64,000 nt of DNA from Microbacterium sp. Root166 (GTDB taxonomy: Bacteria; Actinomycetota; Actinomycetes; Actinomycetales; Microbacteriaceae). Under the pieces are notes generated by a model. That model made no database searches, was not told the origin of the DNA, and saw only the letters and a list, made by a program, of their open reading frames with translations. The position numbers were made by a program, and so were the translations under genes. The stretch spans positions 1,317,241 to 1,381,240 of the forward strand of contig NZ_LMGL01000001.1 in the NCBI RefSeq assembly GCF_001427145.1. Direction: 5' to 3'. This document shows positions 232 through 16,691 of the stretch, one piece after another. Positions within the stretch are counted from its first letter, which is position 1. Each line of letters opens with the position of its first letter.

Positions 232-1026
232 ATGTACCAGCTCGCACCCAATATCGAACTGCTCTTCACAGAGGCCGGCGACTATCACGACCGCGTGCGG
301 GCGGCCGCGGCATCCGGTTTCACGGCCGTCGAGATGTGGGGGCCTACGGGTGTCGACGCGCCTTCGACGCCCAAGGACCTGCCGGCGCTGAAGGCGGCGC
401 TGGATGAGACGGGGCTGCAGCTGACCGCGCAGCTCGCCGAGCCCCGCACGCAGTTCATGATCCCGCCGTGGGACCACTCCGAGTTCTACCGCAAGCTCGA
501 CGAGGGCGTCGAGATCGCCCATGTCCTGGGCACCCCGCGGATGGTCGTCGGAAGCGGCACCGGATTCGGCGGATGGAAGCGCCAGGTGCAGCTCGACAAG
601 CTCATCGAGATCTACCAGAAGGCCATCGCCCAGATCGAGGGATCGGGGATCACGCTGGTGCTCGAGCCGGTGAACGTCCGTGTCGATCACCCCGGGTCGC
701 TGCTGGACCGCACGAGCGAGGCGGTCTACGTCGCGCGCGGCGTCGACTCCCCGTTCTTCGGCGTGCTCTACGACCTGTACCACTCGACCGTCGAGGGGGA
801 GGACGTCGCGGCCGAGCTCGCGAACGCCGGCGACCTCATCCGGTACGTCCAGCTCGCCGACGCTCCGGGACGCGGCGAGCCCGGCACGGGTGCGATCGAC
901 TGGGAGGCCCGTCTGGGCGAGCTCCGCGCCTCGGGGTACGACGGCCCCATCGGCCTCGAGTACTACCCGCAGGCCCCGTCGGCCGAGTCGGTGAAGCGGA
1001 TCGTCGCACTGGCGGCCGCCGCATGA
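232..1026 (+). CDS. Sugar phosphate isomerase/epimerase, hydroxypyruvate-isomerase-like TIM barrel
   Basis: The 264-residue protein has the AP_endonuc_2/xylose-isomerase-like TIM-barrel pattern. It opens with APNIELLFTEAGDYHDRVRA and a following alpha/beta repeat with AVEMW, close to the start of Hyi-type hydroxypyruvate isomerases. Candidate metal and substrate residues are the Glu in LVLEPVN, the Asp/His of YDLYHS, and the Glu in GLEYYPQ near the C-terminus. The start is ATG 232 behind AAGGACG. Its TGA overlaps the ATG of the GMC oxidase, so the two are translationally coupled. In this setting it probably isomerises a keto-sugar released from a glycoside. The exact substrate cannot be read from sequence. 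Confidence 0.75.
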   Translation: MYQLAPNIELLFTEAGDYHDRVRAAAASGFTAVEMWGPTGVDAPSTPKDLPALKAALDETGLQLTAQLAEPRTQFMIPPWDHSEFYRKLDEGVEIAHVLGTPRMVVGSGTGFGGWKRQVQLDKLIEIYQKAIAQIEGSGITLVLEPVNVRVDHPGSLLDRTSEAVYVARGVDSPFFGVLYDLYHSTVEGEDVAAELANAGDLIRYVQLADAPGRGEPGTGAIDWEARLGELRASGYDGPIGLEYYPQAPSAESVKRIVALAAAA

Positions 1027-2546
1027 GCGCGCGCGCCTACCCGGACGCGGTCGACGTGGTGATCGTCGGCAGCGGCCCGACCGGAGCCGCATACGCCCGC
1101 ATCCTGAGCGAGGAGGCGCCGAACGCGACGATCGCGATGTTCGAGGTCGGACCCACCGTGTCGGACCCACCCGGTGCGCACGTGAAGAACATCGAGGATC
1201 CCGCCCGGCGATCCGCCGCCCAGCACGCATCCCAGGGCCCCTCGGCGGCAGCGGAGACGGTCAGCAACCCCGGAGCCGTCAAGAGCGGGCGGCGTCTCGC
1301 CCGGGCCGGCACCTTCCTGCTGGAAGACGGCTATCAGCAGCCCGGCGAGGACGGCCTGCCCGTCGCCGCGATGTCGAGCAACGTGGGTGGCATGGCGGCC
1401 CACTGGACCGCAGCGTGCCCGCGCCCCGGTGGCAGCGAGCGCGTCCCCTTCGTGCCCGACCTCGACGAACTGCTCGACGAGGCCGAGCGCCTGCTCGGCG
1501 TGACGACCCACGCCTTCGACGGCTCGCCGTTCGGCGACCTGGTGCGCGAGCGCCTGGCCAAGGCCGTCGACGAGGGGCGCGTCGACGAGACGCGCGTGCA
1601 GCGGATGCCGCTCGCCGTGCACCGCCGTGAGGACGGCCGCCTCGTATGGTCGGGATCCGACGTGGTGCTCGGCGAGACTACCCGGGCGAACGAGAACTTC
1701 TCCCTGCACGACGAGTCGCTCGTCACGCGGGTGCTGCTCGAGGACGGACGTGCGGTGGGCGTCGACGTGCGCGACGTGCGCTCAGGCGCGACCCACACCG
1801 TGCGTGCCCGCTTCGTCGTGGTCGCCGGCGATGCTCTGCGCACCCCGCAGCTGCTGTGGGCCTCGGGCATCCGCCCCGAGGCTCTCGGGCGCTACCTGAA
1901 CGACCAGGCCCAGATCGTGTTCGCGGTGCGACTGCGCGATGTGCCCCCGCTGGCCGCCGACGTGCCGGCAGACGGCGCGCTCGCGGAGTACAGCGGCGTC
2001 AGCTGGGTGCCGTTCACCGACGACGTGCCCTTCCATGGGCAGGTCATGCAGCTCGATGCCTCGCCGGTCCCGCTCGCCCTCGACGATCCGGTGCAGCCGG
2101 GATCGATTGTCGGCCTCGGCCTGTTCTGCGCGAAGGACCTGCGGCGAGAGGATCGGGTGGCCTTCGATGACGTCGAGCGCGACGCGTACGGGATGCCGGC
2201 GATTCGTCTTCACTACCGCCTGACCGAGGCTGACCACGCCGTCATGGAGCGGGCACGCGAAGAGATCGTACGCATGGGCGCCGCCATCGGTGACCCGCTC
2301 GACTCGCACCCCTTCACGATGCCGCTCGGCGCGTCCCTGCACTACCAGGGCACAACGCGCATGGGCCGCAGCGACGACGGCGAGAGCGTCTGCGACGCCG
2401 ACAGCCAGGTCTGGGCAGCCGGGGGCCTGTTCGTGGCGGGCAACGGCGTCATCCCGACGGCCACGGCGTGCAACCCGACTCTGACCAGCGTCGCGCTCGC
2501 TATACGCGGAGCATGGAAGGTCGCCGCCGAACTCGCTTACGGTTGA
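1023..2546 (+). CDS. GMC-family FAD oxidoreductase, CarA-like (glycoside C3 oxidase candidate)
   Basis: The 507-residue flavoprotein has an N-terminal dinucleotide motif VVIVGSGPTGAAYARIL (residues 13-29). It carries NVGGMAAHWTAACPRP in the FAD domain and a C-terminal GMC_oxred_C half with HYQGTTRMG, VAGNG and NPTLTS. The His and Asn in these last motifs are the expected catalytic pair. The layout resembles pyranose oxidases and CarA of Microbacterium, which oxidises the sugar of C-glycosides to the 3-keto form before C-C cleavage. It starts at ATG 1023, overlapping the previous stop, and is followed by CGD subunits, so oxidation of a glycosyl C3-OH is the leading hypothesis. A similar enzyme lies at 21439-23010. 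Confidence 0.8.
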   Translation: MSARAYPDAVDVVIVGSGPTGAAYARILSEEAPNATIAMFEVGPTVSDPPGAHVKNIEDPARRSAAQHASQGPSAAAETVSNPGAVKSGRRLARAGTFLLEDGYQQPGEDGLPVAAMSSNVGGMAAHWTAACPRPGGSERVPFVPDLDELLDEAERLLGVTTHAFDGSPFGDLVRERLAKAVDEGRVDETRVQRMPLAVHRREDGRLVWSGSDVVLGETTRANENFSLHDESLVTRVLLEDGRAVGVDVRDVRSGATHTVRARFVVVAGDALRTPQLLWASGIRPEALGRYLNDQAQIVFAVRLRDVPPLAADVPADGALAEYSGVSWVPFTDDVPFHGQVMQLDASPVPLALDDPVQPGSIVGLGLFCAKDLRREDRVAFDDVERDAYGMPAIRLHYRLTEADHAVMERAREEIVRMGAAIGDPLDSHPFTMPLGASLHYQGTTRMGRSDDGESVCDADSQVWAAGGLFVAGNGVIPTATACNPTLTSVALAIRGAWKVAAELAYG

Positions 2547-2606: not shown

Positions 2607-3002
2607 GTGATCCCCGATCGCATCATCGAGCAGGGCACGCTGAAGACCGATGGCGCACGCGCCGCGGTCGAGGTGCGCATTCCCTGGTACCGAGCCCTTC
2701 CCGGCTCCTGCATCGCGGGCGCCGGCCTGAAGATCGACGGCGTCGCCGCTGATCCGCAGTCCCTCCGCTGGACCATGAACGGGCGCGAGTTCACCTTCGC
2801 CGAACTGGCGACGAACACCGACGAGTGGTGGTTCCCGCTGGACTCCGCTGTGCTGTCCGGCGATGTGGAGGCGGCCCCGGATGCCGAGCACGAGGTCGAG
2901 GTCGATCTCACGCTCTTCATCCCGTACATCGTCATCTCCGACTCCGAGGTGCTCCACATCGAGGAGCACGACAAGAAGACCATGAAGGCGGTGGCGGCAT
3001 GA
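2607..3002 (+). CDS. C-glycoside deglycosidase beta subunit (DUF6379-type), pair 1
   Basis: The 131-residue beta-rich protein matches the small subunit of C-glycoside deglycosidases. It has VRIPWYRALPGS (residues 25-36), an N-terminal beta-sandwich with KIDGV, the central DEWWFPLDSAVL and the strand VEVDLTLFIPYI. The same skeleton (PW-Y/I-R-S/A-L, WWF, V-x-V-x-x) recurs in the proteins at 5197-5613 and 9816-10229. In characterised systems this subunit binds the TIM-barrel alpha subunit and completes the active site for cleaving the C-C bond of 3-oxo-glycosides. The start is GTG 2607 behind AAGGAGG. It overlaps the alpha-subunit ATG by four bases. Confidence 0.8.
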   Translation: MIPDRIIEQGTLKTDGARAAVEVRIPWYRALPGSCIAGAGLKIDGVAADPQSLRWTMNGREFTFAELATNTDEWWFPLDSAVLSGDVEAAPDAEHEVEVDLTLFIPYIVISDSEVLHIEEHDKKTMKAVAA

Positions 3003-4099
3003 CCGAGCTCGGCACGCCCATCCAGGGCGTCACCCTCTACAGCTTCACCCGCGCCTTCCACGGCCGCGAGTACGACCTCGAGGGCCTCATCCGCAAGGTG
3101 GCTGCCGACGGCTACGGCCCCGGGCTCGAGATCATCGGCTTCTCGAGCTTCCGCGGCTTCCCCGATATCGACGACGCGTTCGCCGGATGGTTCCGGGACC
3201 TGGTCGACGAGGTGGGTCTCGTGACGACCTCACTCGCGGTCAACGCCGACATCGGCATCCACCGTGATCGCCTTCTCAATCAAGATGAGCTCATCGAGTA
3301 CATGCGCCGGCAGATCGCGGCCGCGGCCAAGCTCGGCTTCCCGATCGCGCGGGTGCAGATCTCGCTCACCCCCGACTCGATGGAGGCGCTGGCGCCGATC
3401 GCCGAGGAGTACGGTGTCACCCTCGCGCTCGAGGTGCACGCCGACCAGTACGCGTCGCATCCCCGGATCCTCGCTCTCCGCGACCGCTACGAGAAGGTCG
3501 GCTCGCCCTACCTGGGGTTCACGATGGACTGGGGCGCCACAGTCTCGGGCTTCGCCCCATCGCTCATCGAGGCCTACCGTCGCCGCGGCGCCTCGGAGGA
3601 GCTGCTCGCGCAGGTCACCGGGCTGTGGAACGAGTTCTACGAGCAGGGTCCGCCCGCTGATCAGGCCGAGCACGGCCAGCGCTTCGGCCGATTCATCGGA
3701 CTGGCTGCGCAGAACGGGCGCCCCGATCTCGGCATCGACTTCGGCATCAACGGCACAGGTCTGTTCGGGCCCGCCCGCGTGGACGATTGGCTCGAGATCA
3801 TGCCGTGGATCCGTCACGTGCACGGCAAGTTCTTCGGCATCGACGAGAGCGGCGAAGAGCCGTCGGTTCCGGTGCGCGACCTCATCCGCATTCTCGTTGA
3901 GAACGGCTACAACGGCGCCGTCTCCAGCGAGTACGAGGGCTGGCACTGGAACCACTGGCAGAGCCCCTTCGACATCATCGCCGGGGAGCAGGCGGTGCAG
4001 CGGTCGGCCGCGACGGATGCCGGCAGCCGCATGATCACGGATGCGGCCGAGGCCCGCGGCATCCTCTCCACCCACCTCGCTCAGCCCGTCCGCGGCTGA
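2999..4099 (+). CDS. C-glycoside deglycosidase alpha subunit (TIM barrel), pair 1
   Basis: The 366-residue xylose-isomerase-like barrel opens with GVTLYSFTRAFHGREYDLEG. Likely metal ligands are E145 (in LEVHAD, which also carries H147), D177 (TMDWGA), H275 (HVHGKF) and E311 (SSEYEG). All four are in the order expected for Mn-dependent CGD alpha subunits. ATG 2999 overlaps the beta-subunit stop (ATGA), which fits a 1:1 complex. The expected reaction is elimination of the aglycone from a 3-oxo-C-glycoside. The aglycone preference is unknown. A second alpha gene follows after 34 bases. Confidence 0.8.
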   Translation: MTELGTPIQGVTLYSFTRAFHGREYDLEGLIRKVAADGYGPGLEIIGFSSFRGFPDIDDAFAGWFRDLVDEVGLVTTSLAVNADIGIHRDRLLNQDELIEYMRRQIAAAAKLGFPIARVQISLTPDSMEALAPIAEEYGVTLALEVHADQYASHPRILALRDRYEKVGSPYLGFTMDWGATVSGFAPSLIEAYRRRGASEELLAQVTGLWNEFYEQGPPADQAEHGQRFGRFIGLAAQNGRPDLGIDFGINGTGLFGPARVDDWLEIMPWIRHVHGKFFGIDESGEEPSVPVRDLIRILVENGYNGAVSSEYEGWHWNHWQSPFDIIAGEQAVQRSAATDAGSRMITDAAEARGILSTHLAQPVRG

Positions 4100-4133: not shown

Positions 4134-5186
4134 ATGACTGACAACGACGGCATCGCCGGCACGGGCATCAAGCTCGGGATCACCCTCTACTCGCTCACCT
4201 CGGAGTTCGCCGCCGGACTTTACACGCCCGAGACTCTGATCAAGGCGGCCGCCGACGAGGGTCTCGGCCCGGGCATCGAGTTCAACATCGCGCAGATGCT
4301 GCGCACCTACCCGGATGTGGACGACGAGTTCGTCCGCCTCTGGCGCGACAGCATGGACCGTTACGGCCTCGAGCCCAGCGCGATCGGCACGAATCTCGAT
4401 ATGGGACGCCGCAAGGAGCGCGACATGACGCGCGACGAGGAGCACGACTTCCTCGCGCGCCAGCTCAAGACCGCGCACACCCTCGGGTTCAAGAAGGTCG
4501 TGATCCGGTCCCATGGCAAGGAGTTGCTACGCAGCCTGCTGCCGCTCGCAGAGAAGTACGACCAGAAGCTGGGCTACGAGATCCACGCACCGTCAGGACC
4601 GAACAATCCGCAGGTGCTGCAGATGCGCGAGATGTATGAGGAGCTGCAGTCGGATCGCCTGGGGTTCACCGCCGACTTCTCGTCGACGATGCACTCGCTG
4701 TCGCCGACGCTGCTGCGCACGATGCGGCAGATGGGCATGCCTGAGGAGTACTTCTCGGTCATGGACGAGATCTGGCACGAGCCGACGCCGATGCACGTGC
4801 GCAACCAGAAGTTCGAGGACTTCCTCACGTCGCAGGACTTCGACTTCGCCCGGCTCGGGCCCTTCACCCGGCTCGCCTTCAACATGCACGGGCTCGTGCC
4901 GCCGGAGGAGTGGCTCGACATCATGCCGCAGATCTTCCACGTGCATGCGAAGTTCTACGACATCGACGAGAACGGCGACGAGCCGGCCATGGACATCCCG
5001 CGGATCGTGCGGCAGTTCGTCGAGGGCGGCTACCAGGGCTATCTCTCCAGCGAGTGGGAGGGCCACGCCTTCTCGGACCTCGGCGAGTCCGACCCCATCG
5101 ACCTCGTGAAGAAGCAGCACGCGCTGATGCGCCGCACCATCGAAGAATCCGTCGCAGCCGGCACCGTCGCCGGAACAGTCAGGTAG
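4134..5186 (+). CDS. C-glycoside deglycosidase alpha subunit (TIM barrel), pair 2
   Basis: The 350-residue paralogue of the preceding gene opens with GIKLGITLYSLTSEFAAG. The ligand series is conserved: E149 and H151 in YEIHAP, D181 in TADFSS, H271 in HVHAKF and E307 in SSEWEG. The start is ATG 4134 behind AGGA. It precedes its own beta subunit (alpha then beta, the reverse of pair 1). Divergence in the loops after strand 6, for example NMHGLVPPEEW here against NGTGLFGPARVDDW in pair 1, points to a different aglycone specificity. This is inferred from loop differences only. Confidence 0.8.
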   Translation: MTDNDGIAGTGIKLGITLYSLTSEFAAGLYTPETLIKAAADEGLGPGIEFNIAQMLRTYPDVDDEFVRLWRDSMDRYGLEPSAIGTNLDMGRRKERDMTRDEEHDFLARQLKTAHTLGFKKVVIRSHGKELLRSLLPLAEKYDQKLGYEIHAPSGPNNPQVLQMREMYEELQSDRLGFTADFSSTMHSLSPTLLRTMRQMGMPEEYFSVMDEIWHEPTPMHVRNQKFEDFLTSQDFDFARLGPFTRLAFNMHGLVPPEEWLDIMPQIFHVHAKFYDIDENGDEPAMDIPRIVRQFVEGGYQGYLSSEWEGHAFSDLGESDPIDLVKKQHALMRRTIEESVAAGTVAGTVR

Positions 5187-5196
5187 GGGACAGGCC

Positions 5197-5613
5197 ATGG
5201 CCACTCACAACTCGCTCTTCTCCGAGAAGGACGTCCGCCGTCGCGAGGACGGGATCGGCGTCGCCGTCCAGCTGCCCTGGTACCGGAGCCTGTGGCTCTC
5301 GGCGGTCGACGACGTCTCGGCATCCGTCAACGGCGTGCCGGTGCCCAAGGAAGACCTGCGGTTCGAGCTCAACGGCACGAGCTACCGCATCGAGGAGCTG
5401 CCCGAGCAGTGGGACACGCTCTGGTTCGTCGCCGACAAGCCTGAGGTCGTCATCCCCATGGATCACGCCCCCGAGGCGGGGGAGAAGCTGACCGTCGAGG
5501 TCGTGCTGACGATGCGCCTGCTGTACATGCAGATCATGCCCGGTCAGGACGGCGGACCCGGTCGCTACGTGACCAACCGGGTGCCCGTCGAGCGCGAGGT
5601 CGTGCTGGCATGA
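5197..5613 (+). CDS. C-glycoside deglycosidase beta subunit, pair 2
   Basis: The 138-residue homologue of the protein at 2607-3002 has VQLPWYRSLWLSAVDD, SVNGVPVPKEDL, WDTLWFVADKPEV and VEVVLTMRLLYM in the same order. A C-terminal segment, MPGQDGGPGRYVTNRVPVER, is longer than in pair 1. The start is ATG 5197 with a weak GGGGAC leader 10 bases after the alpha stop, and its TGA overlaps the next ATG. It is expected to form a complex with the alpha subunit just upstream. Confidence 0.78.
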   Translation: MATHNSLFSEKDVRRREDGIGVAVQLPWYRSLWLSAVDDVSASVNGVPVPKEDLRFELNGTSYRIEELPEQWDTLWFVADKPEVVIPMDHAPEAGEKLTVEVVLTMRLLYMQIMPGQDGGPGRYVTNRVPVEREVVLA

Positions 5614-6840: not shown

Positions 6841-7842
6841 ATGTCCCGTCCGATCACTCTGTTCACCGGCCAGTGGGCCGACCTCCCATTCGAAGAGGTC
6901 GCGCGGCTCGCGGGCGAGTGGGGCTACGACGGCCTCGAGATCGCGTGCTGGGGTGATCACATCGACGTCTCACGCTGGGATGACGACCAGTACGTGCAGT
7001 CGCGACTCGATATCCTCAAGCGCCACAACCTGCAGGTCTGGGCGATTTCGAACCACCTGACCGGCCAGGCCGTGTGCGATGAGCCGATCGACGCACGTCA
7101 TCGCGGCATCCTCTCGGACCGGGTGTGGGGCGACGGCGACCCCGAAGGCGTGCGTCAGCGCGCCGCCGAGGACATGAAGAACACCGCGCGGTTCGCAGCG
7201 AAGCTCGGCGTGAAGACCGTGAACGGCTTCACCGGCTCGTCGATCTGGAAGGCCGTTGCCATGTTCCCGCCGGCACCCGACGAATGGATCGACGCCGGCT
7301 ACCGAGATTTCGCCGCCCGGTGGAACCCCATCCTCGACGTCTTCGAGGACGTGGACGTGCGGTTCGCTCTCGAAGTGCATCCCAGCGAGATCGCCTACGA
7401 CTACTGGACGACGAAGCGGACGCTCGAGGCCGTCGGGCACCGGGTTTCCTTCGGCCTGAACTTCGACCCGTCGCACTTCATGTGGCAGCAGCTCGACCCG
7501 ATCGCTTTCGTCCTGGACTTCGCGGACCACATCTTTCACGTGCACGTGAAGGAGTCCGTGACCAACCTCGACGGCCGCAACGGCGTGCTCGGCTCGCATC
7601 TGCCGTGGGCGAATCCACGTCGCGGCTGGACCTTCGTGTCCACCGGGCACGGCGCCGTCCCCTGGGAGCCGCTGTTCCGTGCGCTCAACGCGATCGGCTA
7701 CGACGGCCCCACCTCGGTCGAGTGGGAGGACGCGGGGATGGACCGCCTGCACGGTGCACCGGAGGCGCTCGCATTCGTCCGCAGACTCAACGAGATCACG
7801 CCGCCGGCCGCCGCGTTCGACGCCGCCTTCTCGACGAAGTGA
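6841..7842 (+). CDS. Sugar phosphate isomerase/epimerase (xylose-isomerase-like TIM barrel)
   Basis: The 333-residue barrel has metal-site motifs FALEVHPSE (Glu/His), [11 protein letters not shown] (Asp/His), HVHVKES (His) and [10 protein letters not shown] (Glu). It opens with [20 protein letters not shown]. The start is ATG 6841 with an excellent GAAGGAGCT leader. The set of ligands is complete, so it should be an active divalent-metal isomerase or epimerase. It lies 43 bases after the Gfo/Idh gene, a frequent pairing in sugar-derivative catabolism. It probably acts on the keto- or anhydro-sugar formed by CGD. Confidence 0.78.
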
Positions 7843-7850
7843 GGACCGAG

Positions 7851-8720
7851 ATGACCGATGTCGTCAACGTGCTGATCCTCTCCGGTCACATGACACGTGA
7901 ACACGACAACGAGCATCGGAGCTTCCGTCAGCACAACCAGTGGCTGACTACTCTTCTCGAGGACACCGGACGATTCAGGGTCCGAGTCGTCGAGGATCCG
8001 CGTGGACTGGGCCGCGACGTCATCGACAAGTACGACGTGGCGATAGTGGTCTTCGAAGGCCGCGACGGATATCACGACAAGGCTGTCGGCTTCGGTGCCG
8101 AGACGGATGCCGCGCTGCTGCGCTTCGTCTATGACGACGGCAAGGGAATCGTCTGGTTCCACGGGTCAGCGGCGCAGGAGGACGACTGGGGCTATCCCGA
8201 CGAGTACAACGTGATGCGCGGCTCCCGGCTGACGGTGGCGGGCGGTCTGCGTCCGCGCCCGTGGGGTGAAGCGCAGCTCGACACCGTCGAGCCGCGCCAC
8301 CCGATCACCGAGGGCATCAGCGCGCGATGGACGGTGACCGGTGACGACATCCTGACAGGGGTCGAGATCGCCGAAGGCGCCAGGGTGCTGCTGACGACTT
8401 TCGACGACCTCGAATCATATGAGAATGCGCCCGTGTGGCCGATGTCGCACTACCCGGTCGCGATTCCCCCGGAGGGGATCGCCGCGCTGCCGGGCATGAA
8501 CACCGACCAGCCGATCGCGTGGGTCAACGAGTACGGCGCCGGGCGCTCCTTCACGATCACGATCGGCCACGACATCGACACGTTCCGCCGCATCGAGTTC
8601 ATCCGCATGTTCCCGCGCGGAGTGGAGTGGGCGGCGACCGGCGAGATCTCGCTGCAGGGGCCGGATCGTCGTGGCGAGCGGCGGTTTCTGCCCTGGCCGT
8701 ACTACAACCGCGAGGGGTGA
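7851..8720 (+). CDS. ThuA-like protein
   Basis: The 289-residue ThuA-domain protein (glutamine-amidotransferase-like fold) opens with NVLILSGHMTREHDNEHRSF. It has YDVAIVVFEGRD, GKGIVWFHGSAAQEDDWGYP and a late RSFTITIGHDIDTFRRIEF. ThuA proteins accompany Gfo/Idh enzymes in trehalose, trehalulose and 3-keto-sugar pathways, but their activity is poorly defined. The start is ATG 7851, eight bases after the isomerase stop. It is the last gene of the first + strand run and faces the convergent CGD pair 3. Confidence 0.75.
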   Translation: MTDVVNVLILSGHMTREHDNEHRSFRQHNQWLTTLLEDTGRFRVRVVEDPRGLGRDVIDKYDVAIVVFEGRDGYHDKAVGFGAETDAALLRFVYDDGKGIVWFHGSAAQEDDWGYPDEYNVMRGSRLTVAGGLRPRPWGEAQLDTVEPRHPITEGISARWTVTGDDILTGVEIAEGARVLLTTFDDLESYENAPVWPMSHYPVAIPPEGIAALPGMNTDQPIAWVNEYGAGRSFTITIGHDIDTFRRIEFIRMFPRGVEWAATGEISLQGPDRRGERRFLPWPYYNREG

Positions 8721-8732
8721 CCTCGGAGGTTC

Positions 8733-8776
8733 AGCCGGCCTCGCGACGCTCAGGGAAGCGCGCCGCGGGGCCGGCT
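8733..8776. terminator. Hairpin between convergent genes
   Basis: AGCCGGCC (8733-8740) and GGCCGGCT (8769-8776) form a perfect 8-bp stem with a 28-base loop in the 66-base gap between ThuA and CGD alpha 3. There is no T-tract. It is a plausible bidirectional termination structure. Confidence 0.35.
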
Positions 8777-8786
8777 GCTCGCGTGG

Positions 8787-9797
8787 TCAGGCGGCGAGCG
8801 ATGCAGCGCCGTCTGCCAACGCGGCGCTCGCGAGCTCGAGGTGGGCGCGCGTGGTCGCCAGCGGATCGTCGTCGAGCCACTCCTGGCCGCCCCACTCGCT
8901 GCAGAGCGTCCCGGCGAAGCCGACTCGGTGCAGCGCGGCGGCCAGGTCGCGGATGGGCTGCGACACCCGCGCATCGGAGTCGTCCAGGTCCCAGAACTTC
9001 AGGTGGGCCGCGGACAGCAGCGGCAGGACCGGGACGACGTCGGCGATGCTGCTGCGCCCGAAGCGCACGAGCAGGTTCATGTAGAGCGTGTGCACCTGGG
9101 GGGGCACGGCGCCCGAGCGCAGAACATCGACGACGGCGGCGGCGGTCGCCGGGTCCTGCCACTCGTCCCGCAGGCGGCGCACCAGATCCGATGGCAGGCC
9201 AGCCGTCTCGAGCTGTTCGAGGTAGGTCGTCGGCAGCGCGGGCATCAGCATGCTGATGTCCAGCAGCAGGCGCACGTGCGGGCTGTCGATGCGCGCCAGC
9301 GTCTCGTACGCCGGCGCCGCTCCGGGGTTGCCGGGAGCGCCCTGGCCCTGTGCCTCCTCGAAGAGCACGAGGTCCAGCTCCTCCAGCAGAGGCACGAGCC
9401 GGCCCAGAAGCACGGGTCCCGCCTGACCGAGCGGCAGGCGGAGGCCGGTGGCGCCCATTTCGGCCGTCGCGCGCAGCTGCGGCTCGAGGAAAGCGTAGCG
9501 CTCGTCCTCGGAGCGTCTGCGGCCGGCAGGGGTCCAGTCGTCGAGGCTTCCGCCCACGATGCTGACACGGCCGTCGATGCGCGCGAGGCGCTCGCCGAAG
9601 GCCGTGGCCTCCGCGGTCGAGGGCTCGGGGAACGAGCGCCACAGCTGCCCGAGTTCGACCTCGATGTGCGTAGCGAGGCCCTCTTCGATGAGGGATGCCG
9701 CGACATCGGGCGCGGTGCGATCGGCGGCGATCACGGTCGGGGTGAGGTTGAACGCGCTGGCCGAGAGGGTCCAGCCGGTGGGGAGTGCTCGGGTCAT
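8787..9797 (-). CDS. Divergent CGD alpha-like TIM barrel, pair 3
   Basis: The 336-residue protein aligns end to end with the two CGD alpha subunits in the window but is clearly diverged. Putative metal ligands are kept: E148 (in LFEEAQ), D180 (LLLDIS), H265 (AAHLKFWD) and E301 (CSEWGG). The histidine two residues after the first glutamate (H147 and H151 in the paralogues) is Q150 here. It follows its beta partner on the - strand by 18 bases. The metal site argues for an active enzyme, while the His-to-Gln change argues for an altered substrate or chemistry. ATG 9797 is the only good start. Confidence 0.68.
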   Translation of the reverse strand: MTRALPTGWTLSASAFNLTPTVIAADRTAPDVAASLIEEGLATHIEVELGQLWRSFPEPSTAEATAFGERLARIDGRVSIVGGSLDDWTPAGRRRSEDERYAFLEPQLRATAEMGATGLRLPLGQAGPVLLGRLVPLLEELDLVLFEEAQGQGAPGNPGAAPAYETLARIDSPHVRLLLDISMLMPALPTTYLEQLETAGLPSDLVRRLRDEWQDPATAAAVVDVLRSGAVPPQVHTLYMNLLVRFGRSSIADVVPVLPLLSAAHLKFWDLDDSDARVSQPIRDLAAALHRVGFAGTLCSEWGGQEWLDDDPLATTRAHLELASAALADGAASLAA

Positions 9798-9815
9798 TTT
9801 TCGCTCCGGCTCGTA

Positions 9816-10229
9816 TCAGGCGACATCGCGCGAAACGGTCGCGACGGCGGTCGGGGCATCCGTCACGAGTGTCCGTGACGCGGTGAAGGGGAGGCGCAGC
9901 GGCCCGTCCGGACCGGACTGGAGGTACGGCACCACGAGCTCGAACACGACGGTGACCTCATGAGCGCCGGGTGCGACAGGCCTCCGACCCCGGAGGACGA
10001 CGCGATCCTGGACGAACCACCATTCCCGCTCGTGGACCAGCGCCTCGGACGGGATCGACCGATCGCCGATCTGCACCAGCAGCGGACCTGAGGGGGCGCC
10101 GTCGATCCGCACGACCGGGCCTGAAAGGCTCGCGACCGGGAGCGATCGGATCCAGGGCAATGACAGTCGCAGCGCGAACCCGTCAGTCGTCGAGGACAGC
10201 GCGTCCGCACGCAGGGCATGGAGCGTCAT
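9816..10229 (-). CDS. CGD beta-like small subunit, pair 3
   Basis: The 137-residue protein keeps the beta-subunit skeleton: LRLSLPWIRSLPVASL, VVRIDGAPSGP, EREWWFVQDRVVL and VTVVFELVVPYL. The usual Tyr of PWYRSL is Ile. ATG 10229 has a strong GAAGGAG leader. It is transcribed ahead of the alpha-like gene and directly downstream of the ROK regulator, so the three probably form one unit. The 64 bases between it and the ROK gene hold TTATGT at 10272-10277, a word also found in the promoter at 2543-2572. Confidence 0.68.
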   Translation of the reverse strand: MTLHALRADALSSTTDGFALRLSLPWIRSLPVASLSGPVVRIDGAPSGPLLVQIGDRSIPSEALVHEREWWFVQDRVVLRGRRPVAPGAHEVTVVFELVVPYLQSGPDGPLRLPFTASRTLVTDAPTAVATVSRDVA

Positions 10230-10293
10230 GGCTCTCCTTCGATCCGTCGCTTATGCGTCGAACCTACACCCTTATGTCGAAAGAGCGAAGAAG

Positions 10294-11550
10294 TTACATA
10301 GTCAGCGACGCCGGCGGCTGCTGGTCCGCGAACCAACGCGGGAACGTCGCATCGAAGAGCTGCTCCTTCACCATCTCGACGCCGCCGCGCAACGGCTCGG
10401 TGACGTCATTGATCGACTGGACGATGCTGAGGTCGCGCGTCGCGAGCGGAAGCGAGAGTTCGTAGACCCGCTGTCGCACCTCAGCGAGGAACACCTCACC
10501 GGCCGCGGCCACTGCGCCGCCGATCACGATCACGCTCGGGTTGAACATATTCACCAGTGCGGCGATCGACTCGCCCACGACGCGGGCGGAGGCCTGGATC
10601 AGCGAGATCGCGAAGGCGTCGCCGTTCTCGGCCGCGCGGGAGATGTTCTCGGGGGTCGGCGGGATGCCGTCCGCGGCCTGGCGGGCGAGCTGTCCGCCGG
10701 CGCCGGCGGCGATCGCCGCTTCGGCGTCGCGGGTGAGCGCCCAGCCCCCCGCGACCGCTTCGAGGCACCCGACCTTGCCGCACCGGCACTGCAGATCGGA
10801 TCCAGCCACGCGCACGTGCCCGATGTCGCCCGCCGCGCCGTTGGCCCCGCGGTGGATGTGACCGCGCGACAGCAGGCCGGCACCGATCCCGGAGCCGATC
10901 TTGCAGTAGATCAGGTCGATGTCGTCCTCGTGGCGGCGGGCGCGCTCTCCGTAGGCGAGCAGGTTGACGTCGTTGTCGACCCAGACCGGCGCGTCGAAGT
11001 GCTGTTCAAAGCGACGGCGCACATCGAACCCGTTCCATCCCGGCATGATCGGCGGTGCCACCGGACGACCGGTTGCGAAGTCGACGGGACCGGGAAGGCC
11101 CACGGCTACGCCCCACACCGGCCGCTCATCGTGGCGCTCACGCAGCTCGTGGACCATCGCGAGCGTGGCCTCCAGTGTCTCCGCGGGGCCCCGGGAGATC
11201 TCCCAGTCGCGGTGACTCTGATCGATGATGACGCCGTCCAGGTCGGACAGCCCGACGTGGATGTGCAGCGCGCCCAGGGCGCAGATCACGATGTGCCCGC
11301 GATCGGACCGGAATCGAAGCGTGCGCGGAGCCCGTCCGCCCGATGAGGGCCCGTAGTCGCCGTCGCCGAGGAATCCCATTTCAATCGCCTGGTCCACGCG
11401 CTGCGCCACCACGCCGCGACCGAGGCCGGTCACGCGGCCGATGTCGGGGCGCGTCGTCGCGTCGCCCGTTCGCACCATGTTGACGATGCGCAGAAGGCTC
11501 GTCACCTCGTCCGTCTGAGCGCCGAAGCGCAGTGTCGTTCGCGTCGCCAT
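10294..11550 (-). CDS. ROK-family transcriptional regulator
   Basis: The 418-residue protein has an N-terminal winged helix (residues 10-65, with TSLLRIVNMVRTGDATTRPD) and a ROK sugar-kinase-like domain. It carries GVAVGLPGPVDF, VDNDVNLLAYGE, GSGIGAGLL and the zinc motif CRCGKVGCLEAVAGG. Such proteins (NagC/XylR type) bind a sugar and release DNA. ATG 11550 is preferred over GTG 11565 because AGGA sits six bases ahead of it. It is divergent from the Gfo/Idh gene and upstream of CGD pair 3, so it is the obvious local regulator of the C-glycoside genes. Confidence 0.85.
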   Translation of the reverse strand: MATRTTLRFGAQTDEVTSLLRIVNMVRTGDATTRPDIGRVTGLGRGVVAQRVDQAIEMGFLGDGDYGPSSGGRAPRTLRFRSDRGHIVICALGALHIHVGLSDLDGVIIDQSHRDWEISRGPAETLEATLAMVHELRERHDERPVWGVAVGLPGPVDFATGRPVAPPIMPGWNGFDVRRRFEQHFDAPVWVDNDVNLLAYGERARRHEDDIDLIYCKIGSGIGAGLLSRGHIHRGANGAAGDIGHVRVAGSDLQCRCGKVGCLEAVAGGWALTRDAEAAIAAGAGGQLARQAADGIPPTPENISRAAENGDAFAISLIQASARVVGESIAALVNMFNPSVIVIGGAVAAAGEVFLAEVRQRVYELSLPLATRDLSIVQSINDVTEPLRGGVEMVKEQLFDATFPRWFADQQPPASLTM

Positions 11551-11680
11551 GGTTGATCCTGACACAACTGCCCGTTGCTGGAGCGCAAGCTAGAGCAGTC
11601 TTGCGGCATTATGTTCCAACTTGGGCTTTAAAGCGACCGAAGTCCGGGTTACGCTCGAGGCCCAACGATCGGAGTCCGGG

Positions 11681-12721
11681 ATGCACAACGTGGGTGTGAT
11701 CGGCGCAGGGCCCGGCGTGCGGGCGCTCCACGTGCCGACTCTCGGGTCGCTGACCGACGACTACCGGATCGTGCATGTCGCGGACGCCGGCGGCGGTCGG
11801 GCAGAAGGGGTCGCGCGAACCGTCGACGCGCGCTGGTCTGGGTCCGCGGACGCGCTACTCGCAGATCCGGCGGTCGACATCGTCGCCATCTGCACGCCTC
11901 CGGCCACGCACGCCGCCCTCATCCTCGCGGCCGTCGCCGCCGGCAAGCGTGCGATCTTCTGCGAGAAGCCGCTCGCCGTCTCCACCGAGGAGCTCGACGC
12001 GGTGCTGCGAGTCTGCGCGGCGAACGACGTGGTGCTGGTGGTGGGGACCAACCACCTGTTCGATCCGGCCTGGGACCGCGTGAAGCAGCACCTCGACCGG
12101 ACCCGCGCCCGCGTTCTCAGCGTGTCCTCGACGGTCGCGCTCGCGCCGAACGACCGCTACCACGCCCTCGTCGCCGACACGGTGCCCGCCGCTGTGCCGG
12201 AGCCTCGGCCGCCGATCGACCTCTCGGACCCGATCATGTCCGCCGCCATCGTCCGTCAGCTGCTCACCGGACTCGCGATCCACGACCTCCCTCTCGTGCG
12301 GGATCTGCTTCCCGAGTTCGAAAGCGTCGAGTTCGGGCGTGCCGTGGCGCCGATCGGGTACGACGTCGGGATCCGGGCTGGCGGAGCACTCGCCCGCCTG
12401 TCGGCCGTCATGCTCCCCGCGGGTGCGGACAGTCGGTGGCGCTTCACGATCGTGACCACCCATGACCGCGTCGAGATCGACTTCCCGCCCCCGTTCGTCC
12501 ATGTCGGCAGCGCCCGCGTGAGGGTGCGAGACGAGGCAGGCCGGGTGACGCGCTTCCCTGTGGTCGACGAGGACGGATATCAGGCCGAGTGGCGATCACT
12601 GGCGGAGATCCTGCGTGGCGAGCGACCCATGGAGTACGACGAGCTCGAGGCCGACGCACGCTTCGCCATCGCGCTGGCGGACGCTGCGGCCGACGTCGTG
12701 CGACGAGGAGCGGCGGCATGA
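11681..12721 (+). CDS. Gfo/Idh/MocA-family oxidoreductase
   Basis: The 346-residue protein has a nucleotide motif GVIGAGPGVRALHVP (residues 4-18) and CEKPLAVS with the catalytic Lys at residue 96. It lacks the typical D-x-G-x-H signature of simple glucose-fructose oxidoreductases but keeps the overall fold (IHDLPLVRDLLPEF). ATG 11681 is chosen because homology begins there; the open frame extends upstream to 11621 without a ribosome site. It is divergent from the ROK gene and overlaps the next ORF by four bases (ATGA). Confidence 0.72.
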   Translation: MHNVGVIGAGPGVRALHVPTLGSLTDDYRIVHVADAGGGRAEGVARTVDARWSGSADALLADPAVDIVAICTPPATHAALILAAVAAGKRAIFCEKPLAVSTEELDAVLRVCAANDVVLVVGTNHLFDPAWDRVKQHLDRTRARVLSVSSTVALAPNDRYHALVADTVPAAVPEPRPPIDLSDPIMSAAIVRQLLTGLAIHDLPLVRDLLPEFESVEFGRAVAPIGYDVGIRAGGALARLSAVMLPAGADSRWRFTIVTTHDRVEIDFPPPFVHVGSARVRVRDEAGRVTRFPVVDEDGYQAEWRSLAEILRGERPMEYDELEADARFAIALADAAADVVRRGAAA

Positions 12722-13479
12722 CCCGCCTACCGGTGTGGGGGGAGGATGCCGCGTTCCGCGCCGCGATCGCGCAGCTGGCGGATCGCGCACGGCCGGCTAC
12801 CGGTCCCGCCGGAGCGGTCTGCGTCATCGACGGTGGTCGCGCAGCAGCCCAGTACCCGCACGTCGCAACCGCCGGCCCGCTCGCGCTGATCGTCACCGAC
12901 CCCGCTCGCGTCGCGGATTCACTGCTCGCCGAAATGTCGACGGCCGGCGTCCCGGTGATCGTCCACCGCCCTCGGCTGCGCAGTGACGACGTGGCTGTGA
13001 CCGGTGACCCAGGGTCGCTCCGCCTCCTCACCGTCGACGTCGTGGCGTCGGGGGCGGAGCTGCGGGAGACGACGGTCGACGCCGTCGGGTGGGCCCGCTC
13101 GCTCGCCGGCGGGCCGCTGGTGCTGCGCGGCGGCGCCCGGTCGGAGGCGGCGCTCCTCGTGGCACTCGACGGCCCTGGCGGTGTACCCGTCTCGCTGAGC
13201 ATCACGCGGCTGATGTCGGCCACGAGCCCGTCACTCCTCGTCGTCGGTGTCGGGGAACGGCGTGTCGAGGTCGAGATCGAGGAGGTCCTGGGGGTGCACG
13301 ATGTGAGGATCCACGACGCCGATGGCGAGTGGCGGCCCCGCCCTCGCCATGAGGCTGCAGCGAGACTCGCCCTCCGCCGTGCGCTCGCCGCGGTGGACGG
13401 GGCTGTCGTCGGCGATCTGGACGACCTCGTCCATGACCGGGCGCTGGCGGACACCATGCTGCGCGGCTTCTCCTCATAA
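12718..13479 (+). CDS. Unknown protein, possible degenerate Gfo/Idh-like partner
   Basis: The 253-residue protein was not recognised as a named family. Its order of elements parallels the preceding Gfo/Idh enzyme: a LALIVTDPARVADSLLAEMS stretch followed by VPVIVHRPRL where the neighbour has RAIFCEKPLAV. A beta-rich C-terminal half (SLSITRLMS, RRVEVEIEEVLG, RIHDADGE) is followed by a final LDDLVHDRALADTML helix. The catalytic EKP is replaced by HRP (residues 83-85) and no glycine-rich nucleotide loop is visible. ATG 12718 overlaps the Gfo stop, implying a stoichiometric partner. A regulatory or structural subunit is possible, but this is a weak inference. Confidence 0.55.
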   Translation: MTRLPVWGEDAAFRAAIAQLADRARPATGPAGAVCVIDGGRAAAQYPHVATAGPLALIVTDPARVADSLLAEMSTAGVPVIVHRPRLRSDDVAVTGDPGSLRLLTVDVVASGAELRETTVDAVGWARSLAGGPLVLRGGARSEAALLVALDGPGGVPVSLSITRLMSATSPSLLVVGVGERRVEVEIEEVLGVHDVRIHDADGEWRPRPRHEAAARLALRRALAAVDGAVVGDLDDLVHDRALADTMLRGFSS

Positions 13480-13586: not shown

Positions 13587-14606
13587 ATGATCAAGCTGCT
13601 GTCCCACCTGTCGTTCGTCGCGATCACGACGCCGGACATCGAGGCATCCGTCGACTTCTACGTCAACCAGGTCGGCCTCGTCGAGGTCGCCCGTGAGGAT
13701 GACCGTGTCTACCTCCGCTGCTGGGGGGACTACTACAAGTACTCCGTCGTGGTGGTCAAGGGCGACGAACCGGGGCTCGAAACCATGGCGTGGCGCACGT
13801 CGAGCGCCGAGGCTCTCGAAGAGGCCGCGAAGCGCATCGAGGCGGCCGGCGCACAGGGCGAGTGGTTCGACGGCGAGGGCATCGGGCGCGCCTACCGCTT
13901 CACCGGCCCCTTCGGCCACAGCATGACGCTGCACTGGGACGTCACCCGCCACCACGACAGCGAGGGTGACGCGGCATCCATCTACCCCGACCGTCCCTCG
14001 CGTCGTAGCAAGATCGCCGGCGCACCCCGCCAGCTCGACCACGTCACGATCGCGACGAGCGACGTGGACGGCTTCGTGAAGTGGTACGTCGACACCCTCG
14101 GCTTCCGCTTCATGGCGCGCACCGTGCTCGACGAGGCCCCCATCTCGGTGTTCTCCGTGCTCACGACGAACGAGAAGTCGCACGACCTCGGCGTCGTCCT
14201 CGACGGCTCGTCCCGTGCGGGCCGCATCAACCACTATGCCTTCTGGGTCGACACCCGCGAAGAGTTGCTGATCGCCGCCGACGTGCTGGGCGAGAACGGC
14301 TACCCGATCGAGTACGGCCCGTCGATCCACGGCATCGGCGAGCAGAACTTCCTCTACTACCGCGAGCCGTCGAGCCTGCGCATCGAGCTCAACACCGGCG
14401 GCTACCGCAACTACGTGCCGGACTGGGAGGCGAACACCTGGAAGCCTTCGCAGGGGTCGAACAACTTCTACCGGAACAGCGTCATGCCGATGTCGATGAC
14501 CGAGTCGTTCCCGCCCGCCGACGGTCCCAGCGCGACCGAAGAGGGCGTCCCCGACGAGATCAAGGACGCTCTGCTGAACCCGTACCAGAAGCAGGGACAG
14601 GGCTGA
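13587..14606 (+). CDS. VOC-family extradiol-type ring-cleavage dioxygenase
   Basis: The 339-residue protein has two vicinal-oxygen-chelate modules. The first (LSFVAITTPDIEASVDFYVN) lacks metal ligands. The second carries the H-H-E facial triad of type I extradiol dioxygenases: H152 (QLDHVTIATSD), H216 (RINHYAFWVD) and E267 (LRIELNTGGYR). This is the pattern of catechol 2,3-dioxygenases. It starts at ATG 13587 after GAAAGGATCG. Neighbouring FAH, cyclase-family and decarboxylase-like enzymes support meta-cleavage of an aromatic ring, presumably the aglycone freed by the CGD enzymes. The actual catechol substrate is not determinable here. Confidence 0.8.
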   Translation: MIKLLSHLSFVAITTPDIEASVDFYVNQVGLVEVAREDDRVYLRCWGDYYKYSVVVVKGDEPGLETMAWRTSSAEALEEAAKRIEAAGAQGEWFDGEGIGRAYRFTGPFGHSMTLHWDVTRHHDSEGDAASIYPDRPSRRSKIAGAPRQLDHVTIATSDVDGFVKWYVDTLGFRFMARTVLDEAPISVFSVLTTNEKSHDLGVVLDGSSRAGRINHYAFWVDTREELLIAADVLGENGYPIEYGPSIHGIGEQNFLYYREPSSLRIELNTGGYRNYVPDWEANTWKPSQGSNNFYRNSVMPMSMTESFPPADGPSATEEGVPDEIKDALLNPYQKQGQG

Positions 14607-14612
14607 CACCGC

Positions 14613-14653
14613 CGCGGGCGGCCCTAGGCTCCTCCTTGCCGGGGCCGCCCGCG
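14613..14653 (+). terminator. Strong GC hairpin after the dioxygenase gene
   Basis: CGCGGGCGGCCC (14613-14624) pairs perfectly with GGGCCGCCCGCG (14642-14653) over a 17-base loop, in the 88 bases before the next FAH-family gene. There is no T-run, so it may be an attenuator or mRNA-stabilising stem rather than a full stop. Confidence 0.45.
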
Positions 14654-14694
14654 ACACCACTTCGCACGACGATGAGCGATGGGACGCACAGACG

Positions 14695-15660
14695 ATGACG
14701 ACCACTGCAGGACCCGAGGCGCCGTTCGCGCTCGCACGCTTCCGAGAGGGGGCGGGCAGCCGGCTCGGCCTGGTGGCGGGCGACCGCATCAGACCGCTCT
14801 CCGAGCAAGACCTCGGCGCCGCGTCGCTCAACGAGTTCCTCGCCGAGCCCGACTGGGACCGCCTCGCCGCGCTCGCCGATGCGGAGGGGGAGTGGATGCC
14901 GCTCTCCGCCGTCACACTGACGGCGCCGGTCGAGCCTCGCCAGGTGCTGCAGACCGGGGCGAACTACCGCCAGCACGTGATCGAGCTGGTCGTCGCCGGA
15001 CTCACTCAGGACGGCACCCGCACGCCGGATCAGGCACGCTCGTTCGCGGCCGACATCATGGACAACCGCAAGCGCAACGGCGAGCCGTACTTCTTCATCG
15101 GCCTTCCCGCGTGCGTCGTCGGTGACGACCAGACGCTCGCCCTGCCGGCCTACAGCAAGGTGCACGACTGGGAGCTCGAGCTCGCCGTCGTGATCGGACG
15201 CGAGGCGTTCCGGGTGTCGCCCGAGGACGCGATGAGCCATGTCGCGGGCTACACGATCGCCAACGACATCACCACGCGCGACTACGTCTTCCGCAAGGAC
15301 ATGAAGGAGATCGGCACCGACTGGTACCGGGCCAAGAACGCTCCGGGCTTCCTTCCCACGGGCCCGTTCCTGGTCCCGGCGGCGTTCGTCGAGGGCGGCA
15401 ATCTGACCGTGCGCCTCGAGCTGAACGGTCAGGTGATGCAGGATGCCTCGACCAGCGACCTGCTGTTCGACATCCCGGCCCTCGTCTCCGCGGCGTCTCA
15501 GACCATGCCGCTGCTGCCCGGTGATCTGCTGCTCACCGGAAGCCCCGCGGGCAACGGCCAGCACTGGAAGCGGTTCCTCCAGGACGGGGACGTCATGACC
15601 GGCTCCATCCAGGGGCTGGGAACGCAGGTCGTCCGCTGCGTCGAGGAGCCGGCGCGGTGA
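14695..15660 (+). CDS. Fumarylacetoacetate hydrolase (FAH) family protein
   Basis: The 321-residue FAH-fold enzyme has the metal ligands in VHDWELELAVVIGRE (Glu-x-Glu) and the Asp of IANDITTRD. Later come PTGPFLV and LLTGSPAGNG, which are family signatures. FAH enzymes cleave acylpyruvates or hydrolyse and decarboxylate ring-fission products. It follows the extradiol-type dioxygenase and is overlapped by the next gene (GTGA). It starts at ATG 14695. The long N-terminal part (QVLQTGANYRQHV) is typical of the 2-hydroxyhepta-2,4-diene-dioate isomerase/hydratase subgroup. Confidence 0.8.
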   Translation: MTTTAGPEAPFALARFREGAGSRLGLVAGDRIRPLSEQDLGAASLNEFLAEPDWDRLAALADAEGEWMPLSAVTLTAPVEPRQVLQTGANYRQHVIELVVAGLTQDGTRTPDQARSFAADIMDNRKRNGEPYFFIGLPACVVGDDQTLALPAYSKVHDWELELAVVIGREAFRVSPEDAMSHVAGYTIANDITTRDYVFRKDMKEIGTDWYRAKNAPGFLPTGPFLVPAAFVEGGNLTVRLELNGQVMQDASTSDLLFDIPALVSAASQTMPLLPGDLLLTGSPAGNGQHWKRFLQDGDVMTGSIQGLGTQVVRCVEEPAR

Positions 15661-16655
15661 CCACGCCGACGGAGGATCCGGCCGAGCTGGACCGCAGCGA
15701 TCCCGCAGCGGAGGTCGCTGCGCGCGCCGCCGCCTTCCGGAACTGGGGTCGCTGGGGCGAGGACGACGTGCTGGGCACCCTCAACTTCATCGAGCCGTCC
15801 AAACGCGTCGAGGCCGCCGCCCTCGTGACCGAGGGTCGCATCGTCTCCCTGGCGCAGGCCTTCGACACGAACGGTCCACAGAAGGGCTGGCGGCGGCGCA
15901 CCAATCCGGTGCACACCATGACCGACACCGGCACCGACGCCGAACGCGGCAGCCAGGGGTTCCCGCACGGCATCGGCGGCGCGGACGACGTCATCGCCAT
16001 GCCCCTCCAGTGCTCGACGCAGTGGGACGGCCTCGGCCACATCTTCGACCACGGCAACGCCTGGAACGGCCGCCGTGCCGGTGACGTCGTGACCAGCGAC
16101 GGCGACCTCGTCACGGGCATCGAGCACGCGGCATCCGTCATCGTCTCGCGCGGTGTGCTGCTCGACATGGGGCGGCACCTGCAGACGGAGACGGGCGAAC
16201 TGCCGGACGGGTACGCGATCACCGTCGCCGACCTCGAGGCGTGCGTCGCCGCGCAGGGCGCGAGCAGCGCCGTCGGCCGCGGCGACATCGTGCTCGTCCG
16301 CACCGGGCAGTACGCGCGGACGCGTCGCGACGGCTGGGGCGACTACGCCGGCGGACCGGCGCCGGGGCTCTCGCTCACCACCGCGGGCTGGCTCCACCGC
16401 ACTGAGATCGCGGCGATCGCCACCGACACGTGGGGTTTTGAGGTGCGGCCGAACGAATTCGACGCCCCCGCCTTCCAGCCGCTGCATCAGGTGGTCATCC
16501 CGAACATCGGACTGACCATCGGCGAGATGTGGAACCTCGACGAGCTCGCCGAGGCGTGCCTCGAGCGTTCCCGCTGGGACTTTCTCCTCTCGGCGGCGCC
16601 GCTGCCGATCACGGGTGCGGTCGGTTCGCCGATCAACCCCGTCGCCATCCTCTGA
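15657..16655 (+). CDS. Cyclase-family (kynurenine-formamidase-like) metal hydrolase
   Basis: The 332-residue protein resembles the Cyclase family (Pfam PF04199). It has the metal-binding region QCSTQWDGLGHIFDHGNAWN, where the canonical H-x-G-T-H-x-D is partly altered to S-T-Q-W-D followed by GLGHI. It also has GRGDIVLVRTGQ and a downstream WGFEVRPNEFDAP. Such enzymes open lactone, formamide or ester rings in aromatic degradation. It starts at GTG 15657, overlapping the FAH stop by four bases. It likely acts on an intermediate between hydroxylation and side-chain cleavage. Confidence 0.7.
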   Translation: MTTPTEDPAELDRSDPAAEVAARAAAFRNWGRWGEDDVLGTLNFIEPSKRVEAAALVTEGRIVSLAQAFDTNGPQKGWRRRTNPVHTMTDTGTDAERGSQGFPHGIGGADDVIAMPLQCSTQWDGLGHIFDHGNAWNGRRAGDVVTSDGDLVTGIEHAASVIVSRGVLLDMGRHLQTETGELPDGYAITVADLEACVAAQGASSAVGRGDIVLVRTGQYARTRRDGWGDYAGGPAPGLSLTTAGWLHRTEIAAIATDTWGFEVRPNEFDAPAFQPLHQVVIPNIGLTIGEMWNLDELAEACLERSRWDFLLSAAPLPITGAVGSPINPVAIL

Positions 16656-16691
16656 CCCATCCGTCCCTCACCAGAACATGGAGGTTCTGAC

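Follow-up and report, generated by a model that had tools for sequence, protein, structure and literature searches.

The breakdown of C-glycosides has so far been described as two steps, oxidation followed by C-C cleavage. In AgCGD2, a C-glycoside deglycosidase (CGD) of Arthrobacter globiformis, Mn is bound by Glu147, Asp179, His269, Lys271 and Glu305; His149 is the proposed base, Glu307 is connected to His149 via a water, and Tyr17 contacts the aglycone (PMC8563793). Exchange of the His for Ala left 10.4% of the activity in PuCGD and 1.8% in MiCGD, and exchange of the Glu for Ala left 49.8% and 1.9%, respectively (PMC8563793). In the beta subunit of PuCGE, Tyr39betaPhe lowered C-glycoside activity about 1.2 x 10^4-fold and activity on 3-keto-phlorizin, a 3-keto-O-glycoside, only 2.4-fold, and Tyr39beta is described as specifically required for C-C cleavage of C-glycosides (PMC10628242). 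A literature search over passages of open-access papers (PMC8563793, PMC10628242, PMC12724307, PMC10646112, PMC11673046, PMC7676230) yielded no CGD relative without the base His.

The DNA analyzed here (the window) is a stretch of 64,000 nt from Microbacterium sp. Root166 (GCF_001427145.1, contig NZ_LMGL01000001.1, positions 1,317,241-1,381,240 of the forward strand). Its third CGD-like pair, alpha3 and beta3 (pair 3; Table 1), is encoded on the minus strand together with a ROK-family regulator, with gaps of 18 nt between alpha3 and beta3 and 64 nt between beta3 and the ROK gene, so that the pair was correctly placed directly under the ROK gene by the first-pass annotation. A sigma-70 and terminator scan of positions 8600-11900 found nothing. 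Alpha3 matched AgCGD2 (7dnm_A) with E 3.2e-23 in phmmer and E 7.9e-31 with a 12-sequence profile, and scored 17.3 bits against PF01261 (cut-off 31.1). Beta3 is a weak but consistent relative of CGD beta subunits (8umc_B, E 9.4e-5; PF19906, E 0.012, under its cut-off). Neither protein matched an NCBIfam model at E 0.01. As judged from sequence, pair 3 is homologous to CGDs: it has the predicted TIM-barrel alpha subunit, the beta partner and the metal-ligand residues (two Glu, one Asp, one His and one Lys), and it lacks the base His, its partner Glu and the beta Tyr.

Table 1. Coordinates of pair 3, its active-site codons and neighboring features (window positions; residues of alpha3 unless stated otherwise).
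Feature	Position	Strand	Remarks
Two beta-alpha fused CGD genes	window -7086 to -4242 (L053:10155-12999)		Tandem, just upstream
GMC oxidoreductase	1023-2546	+	Pyranose oxidase / C-glycoside oxidase type; PF05199; TIGR02462 E 3.7e-67, under cut-off
Pair 1 (beta1, alpha1)	2607-4099	+	Ordinary CGD type; His147, Glu313 numbered as in MiCGD
Pair 2 (alpha2, beta2)	4134-5613	+	Ordinary CGD type, close to AgCGD2 (658 bits)
alpha3	8787-9797	-	336 aa; TIM-barrel alpha subunit, Q-type CGD homologue
Gly303 codon	8889-8891	-	Base-partner position (AgCGD2 Glu307 / PuCGD Glu301 / MiCGD Glu313)
Glu301 codon	8895-8897	-	Metal-ligand position (AgCGD2 Glu305)
His265-Leu-Lys267 codons	8997-9005	-	Metal-ligand positions (AgCGD2 His269, Lys271)
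Asp180 codon	9258-9260	-	Metal-ligand position (AgCGD2 Asp179)
Gln150 codon CAG	9348-9350	-	CGD catalytic-base position (AgCGD2 His149, PuCGD His143, MiCGD His147)
Glu148 codon	9354-9356	-	Metal-ligand position (AgCGD2 Glu147)
beta3	9816-10229	-	137 aa; beta subunit, divergent CGDB/DUF6379 protein
beta3 Ile27 codon ATC	10149-10151	-	In PWIRSL; PuCGE Tyr39beta position
ROK-family regulator	10294-11565	-	Directly upstream of beta3; PF00480 E 8.7e-52
Gfo/Idh/MocA protein and protein without Pfam/NCBIfam match	11681-13479	+	Divergent from ROK-beta3-alpha3; relatives in 69/80 and 66/80 loci

The residues of the active site were read from the codons and from alignments with characterized CGD alpha subunits. 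The first-pass annotation, by hand alignment, had set E148-A-Q150 of alpha3 against the E-x-H of pairs 1 and 2 (E145/H147 and E149/H151); the codons bear this out, and MAFFT, phmmer to 7dnm_A and the 12-sequence profile all align the motif ungapped to the CGD E-x-H. D180, H265 and E301, stated to remain, are retained, as is K267, the fifth AgCGD2 ligand. Two residues past the metal ligand E301, Gly303 turns 'SEWEG' into 'SEWGG', and Phe16 stands at the position of AgCGD2 Tyr17. The PWIRSL of beta3, for PWYRSL, was likewise read correctly; when DgpB was aligned with beta2, Tyr39 fell on the Tyr of PWYRSL, where beta3 has Ile27 and the four other CGD-like beta subunits of the genome have Tyr. 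The E-x-H and the second Glu are present in all seven solved alpha subunits compared (7dnm, 8qvc, 9m3a, 7bvr, 7xrf, 9m3b and 8qrz); 7bvr and 7xrf are both DgpC, and 7bvs also matched, outside the seven compared at these positions. The earlier observation is thus confirmed and is larger than stated: Gly303 and the role of beta Ile27 had been missed. Its description of the site as metal-competent but altered is supported at the level of sequence by the five conserved ligand positions and by the replacement, throughout the clade, of base His, partner Glu and, in the main clade, beta Tyr.

No other His was found at the base position, and it was judged unlikely that one fills it, the 12-row alignment having only H265 (a metal ligand) and H319 as invariant His residues. 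H319, in the last helix, is specific to the Gln-type proteins (the alignment there is possibly one residue off) and, judged from the position of the helix in the model, is unlikely to reach the active site. Of the 80 loci, 59 have His and 19 have Gln at position 305; the window copy has Gln.

AlphaFold2 models were obtained for alpha3 (pLDDT 95.2, pTM 0.92) and for a natural beta3-alpha3 fusion, L121 (pLDDT 90.5, pTM 0.90; the linker, residues 131-143, is weak). In the alpha3 model, E148, D180, H265 and E301 fall on strands 5 to 8. The best fold matches of alpha3 were CGDs (Z 25-33), followed by isomerases and ketose 3-epimerases (Z about 21); the match list for the L121 fusion probes mainly the alpha part.

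Relatives were collected from GTDB genome contigs with the patterns EWGG[QH]EW and KFWDLDD, which gave 88 relatives; 80 loci were retained. With gaps set aside, Gln150 was present in 80/80 loci and Gly303 in 78/78 readable loci, the first pattern being biased toward Gly303 and neither covering Gln150. The metal positions were E148 in 80/80, D180 in 79/79, H265 and K267 each in 78/79 and E301 in 78/78 readable loci, and beta3 Ile27 was found in 79/79. Metal-ligand positions were still kept in loci that have diverged to 50-73% identity with the window alpha3. Searches free of the patterns gave the same picture: a whole-protein search recovered 12 intact alpha3 copies (window included) and one frameshifted copy, all with Gln and SEWGG, and a family-level profile search recovered 17 Gln-type loci with Gln and Gly in all 17. 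Gln150 is therefore neither a chance event nor an oddity of one strain, since it is found in all 80 loci and in two deep relatives at about 31-33% identity (L149 and L150).

Orthologues of alpha3 were found in Microbacterium, Agromyces, Leifsonia, Herbiconiux, Subtercola, Pseudoclavibacter, Arthrobacter and others, including A. globiformis NBRC 12137 (L108), the source strain of AgCGD1 and AgCGD2, and M. trichothecenolyticum (L121), the species of MtCGD. Contigs labeled Stenotrophomonas maltophilia and Planococcus (L084, L086) bear Microbacterium-like CGD clusters and are probably contaminated or mislabeled assemblies. Among 98 genomes searched, alpha3 was present in 13, all of which hold other, ordinary CGD-like genes. 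The CGD beta family was found in 13 of 96 genomes searched; 12 of these have alpha3, broken in one (G019), the exception being an assembly that is 88% complete in 650 contigs (G044). A family sample of 299 genomes contained 20 with any CGD-like match (E 1e-6) and 17 with a Gln-type alpha subunit, each of the 17 having at least one further CGD-like match. Among the matches listed for class and order samples (393 and 396 genomes; E limits 1e-20 and 1e-46), no genus other than that of the window had a Gln-type alpha; these samples are thin or the limits strict, because the contig scan found the Gln type in other Micrococcales genera.

The Gln-type alignment set (n=80) comprised 77 of the 80 loci (all but L074, L131 and L133, which are broken), the window copy and the two deep relatives. 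For the His type, 78 of 132 distinct sequences were taken (at most 25 per class), of which 8 turned out to be Gln-type fusions and were excluded, leaving 70. Among the 150 aligned alpha subunits, which are not independent sequences, 70 had His with Glu, 80 had Gln with Gly, and none was mixed. In a maximum likelihood tree of 61 rows, in which both trait columns were kept, a single branch (100/100 support) separated the 29 Gln-type rows from the others; the program warned of long branches for L149, L150, L174 and L130. Glu/Asp48, Glu147, Arg245 and Trp269 were present in 80/80 Gln-type subunits, whereas none of the 70 His-type subunits had an acidic residue at position 48 or 147, Arg at 245 or Trp at 269. 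In the deep relatives L149 and L150, the alpha subunit carries EEVQG and SEWGG and the beta subunit still carries PWYR. The double change in alpha probably preceded the change in beta, since these two already combine Gln and Gly with a beta Tyr. L150 lies within a full CGD cluster, and in the neighborhood of L149 there are CGD-like genes and one related to the gene at 6841-7842.

Selection was estimated from eight locus pairs drawn from 36 loci and filtered at 75% identity and dS under 0.5. The median dN/dS was 0.19 for alpha3, 0.04 for alpha2 and 0.05 for the ROK gene; for alpha3 the values were 0.14-0.26 in seven of the eight pairs and 0.76 in one distant pair (L117/L120). Alpha3 is under purifying selection, clearly weaker than that on its neighbors, and evolves faster. 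Over 2358 alpha3 pairs, far-diverged pairs included, the median was 0.40. An unfiltered comparison of 629 pairs, in which alpha3 (0.42) and 'alpha2' (0.43) showed no difference, was set aside, as 'alpha2' paralogues were mixed and many pairs were far diverged. Pseudogene status or random decay was ruled out for most alpha3 copies by dN/dS and the invariant metal site. Broken copies were seen in G019/L133, G298, L131 (a two-piece match) and L074 (a short frame), through frameshift or stop or sequencing error; in G019/L133 the neighboring CGD genes match over their length.

A beta3 match lay beside alpha3 in 80/80 loci: the two share a single open frame in 28, are distinct genes on the same strand in 37, and are adjacent with beta3 inverted in 15 (L092, L093, L103, L107-L109, L111, L114, L116, L118-L120, L123, L125 and L128; ten are Arthrobacter). 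In these 15 loci the inversion of beta3 relative to alpha3 makes a shared transcript impossible. A ROK gene was found in the flank of 77/80 loci; in 64 of these it lay no more than 350 nt from the beta3 match. The protein encoded at 12718-13479 (253 aa, no Pfam or NCBIfam match) has its relatives in 66/80 loci at only 32-47% identity.

The region holds five CGD-like systems, namely pairs 1 to 3 and the two tandem beta-alpha fusions upstream of the window, and only pair 3 is without E-x-H. One of the fusions is the orthologue of the M. testaceum CGD 8qrz (868 bits) and the other matched AgCGD2 with 434 bits. The 8qrz-type fusion (L053:10182-11507) has Gln-x-Lys for the metal His-x-Lys, as do 3/3 aligned copies and 8qrz itself. 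A single His-to-Gln change need not mean a new reaction, because this type of CGD has Gln at the metal-His265 position. The cluster also contains isomerase-like TIM-barrel genes at 232-1026 and 6841-7842 (strong PF01261 matches), Gfo/Idh/MocA genes, one of them levoglucosan dehydrogenase-like (under cut-off), and aromatic-ring genes (catechol 2,3-dioxygenase-like and FAA hydrolase). The genes at 13587-19803 (a ring-cleavage dioxygenase, FAA hydrolases, a putative cyclase and an FAD monooxygenase) look like aglycone breakdown; the ring-cleavage dioxygenase and FAA hydrolases are absent from the 6-kb flanks of ten Arthrobacter loci.

As the first-pass annotation suggested, the altered site most likely points to a new reaction or substrate. 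Pair 3 is most likely a rewired keto-glycoside enzyme, probably metal-dependent, rather than a C-C lyase. More specifically, and with somewhat less than even confidence, it may be a CGD-related alpha/beta complex that has lost C-C cleavage and carries out proton transfer on a keto-glycoside instead of elimination; an isomerase or epimerase role is the preferred guess. Binding of a keto-sugar and of a divalent metal would persist in such a complex, and its beta subunit would cover the aglycone side. The metal-bound carboxylates Glu148 and Glu301, perhaps with the new acidic residues, would probably move protons, as in ketose 3-epimerases, and with no His base to eliminate the aglycone, elimination would be lost. 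Glu48, Glu147 and Gln150 are assumed, from their strand positions in the model, to face the metal site. The reaction preferred here moves a proton between C2 and C3 of an oxo-glycoside, because alpha3 keeps both Glu positions and loses the requirements for elimination. The most useful reaction would be 2-oxo/3-oxo isomerization or epimerization of oxidized glycosides, handing the 3-oxo form to the adjoining ordinary CGDs. The conserved metal site, the joint replacement of the base dyad, the Ile in place of the beta Tyr and the persistence of the pair in C-glycoside clusters count for this reading, as do the fold matches to CGDs and ketose 3-epimerases, the near-constant co-occurrence of alpha3 with CGD genes and the purifying selection on it. 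Against it stand the faster evolution of alpha3 compared with alpha2, which fits weaker constraint, the Gln at a metal-ligand position of the 8qrz-type CGD, and the 2-/3-keto exchange of oxidized puerarin, which is already fast without an enzyme (PMC10628242). The broader proposal, that pair 3 founds an enzyme class of heterodimeric metal-dependent keto-glycoside isomerases/epimerases derived from C-C lyases, which turn unproductive 2-oxo or wrongly configured C-glycosides into 3-oxo substrates for neighboring CGDs, is speculative and on the whole unlikely.

The retained beta subunit, often fused and covering the aglycone, also fits an eliminase for another glycoside. In that case pair 3 would act as a beta-eliminase on other 3-oxo-glycosides (O-, N- or unusual C-glycosides), with Glu48, Glu147 or a metal-bound water as base, which is possible, though we hold it to be unlikely. 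The residues acidic at positions 48 and 147 in every Gln-type and in no His-type subunit would suit it, and the loss of the beta Tyr is no bar, since PuCGE Tyr39betaPhe keeps O-glycoside elimination (PMC10628242). However, the three oxidized O-glycosides tested with PurA shed their sugar without enzyme, so that a special enzyme is less needed (PMC12724307); the His base is essential also in the unrelated AtOGE, where H134A is inactive (PMC10628242); and Gln in place of His leaves no base where removal of the C2 proton fits.

What speaks most strongly for a non-catalytic role is that alpha3 evolves faster than alpha2 and the ROK gene; in such a role pair 3 would bind the C-glycoside, its oxo form or the released sugar as a sensor, a carrier or a partner of the CGDs or the ROK protein. 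The joint loss of base and partner and the nearby ROK gene in most loci are consistent with this. Retention of all five metal positions despite the divergence of the loci argues against it, as do the new charged residues, whose invariance would not be needed for binding alone. On balance this role is considered improbable.

A hydratase or isomerase acting on the released sugar (2-hydroxy-3-keto-D-glucal) and not on the glycoside is more doubtful still. In the levoglucosan pathway, the step that acts on this sugar uses the Mn-stimulated, sugar-isomerase-like LgdB2 (PMC7676230), and there are preliminary indications of a similar protein in Agrobacterium (PMC10628242); however, the genes at 232-1026 and 6841-7842 look like better candidates, and an aglycone-covering beta subunit would have no obvious use. 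That pair 3 is an ordinary CGD in which Gln150 or another residue supports C-C cleavage is very unlikely: fold and cluster are the same and PuCGD H143A retains 10.4% activity (PMC8563793), but three residues of tested role are replaced and fixed clade-wide, and Tyr39betaPhe alone abolished effectively all C-glycoside activity (PMC10628242).

Many soil actinobacteria thus carry a CGD relative in which the metal center is kept and the cutting residues are swapped, which suggests a different job beside the CGDs. If actinobacteria, even a strain whose CGD was crystallized, keep a base-less CGD complex, the two-step pathway would have a missing step or a layer of control. Pair 3 is a natural experiment in what the CGD metal site does without its His base.

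Among the known systems, the ketose 3-epimerases (D-tagatose/D-allulose) share the TIM barrel with alpha3, at a lower structural match (Z about 21) than the CGDs. Their E/D/H/E metal site, in which two metal-bound Glu residues move the proton, has its counterpart in E148, D180, H265 and E301 of alpha3, and they are not known to have a beta subunit. A profile search of PDB sequences (E 0.1, 8 sequences matched) returned no ketose 3-epimerase, and the match to them is one of fold. The Agrobacterium O-glycoside beta-eliminase AtOGE resembles pair 3 in its similar Mn site and keto-glucoside substrate class, but keeps the catalytic His134 and has no second subunit (PMC10628242). The M. testaceum CGD 8qrz is a beta-alpha fusion, as are 28/80 pair-3 loci, but has E-x-H, SEYEG and a Gln at the metal-His position, and its orthologue in this genome and pair 3 lie on opposite sides of the Gln/His branch. 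PuCGD/PuCGE (DgpB-DgpC; 7bvr, 7exz, 7drd) shares the fold (Z 27.5-29.0), the metal-ligand positions and the beta partner, whereas its mutation-tested His143, Glu301 and Tyr39beta are all replaced in pair 3. The closest is AgCGD2 (AgCarB2-C2, PDB 7dnm/7dnn), the best fold match (7dnm_A, Z 33.4, rmsd 3.0, 326 aligned), which has the same alpha/beta make-up and five metal-ligand positions and differs at His149 (Gln in pair 3), Glu307 (Gly), Tyr17alpha (Phe) and the beta Tyr (Ile), with 25% identity over the structural alignment.
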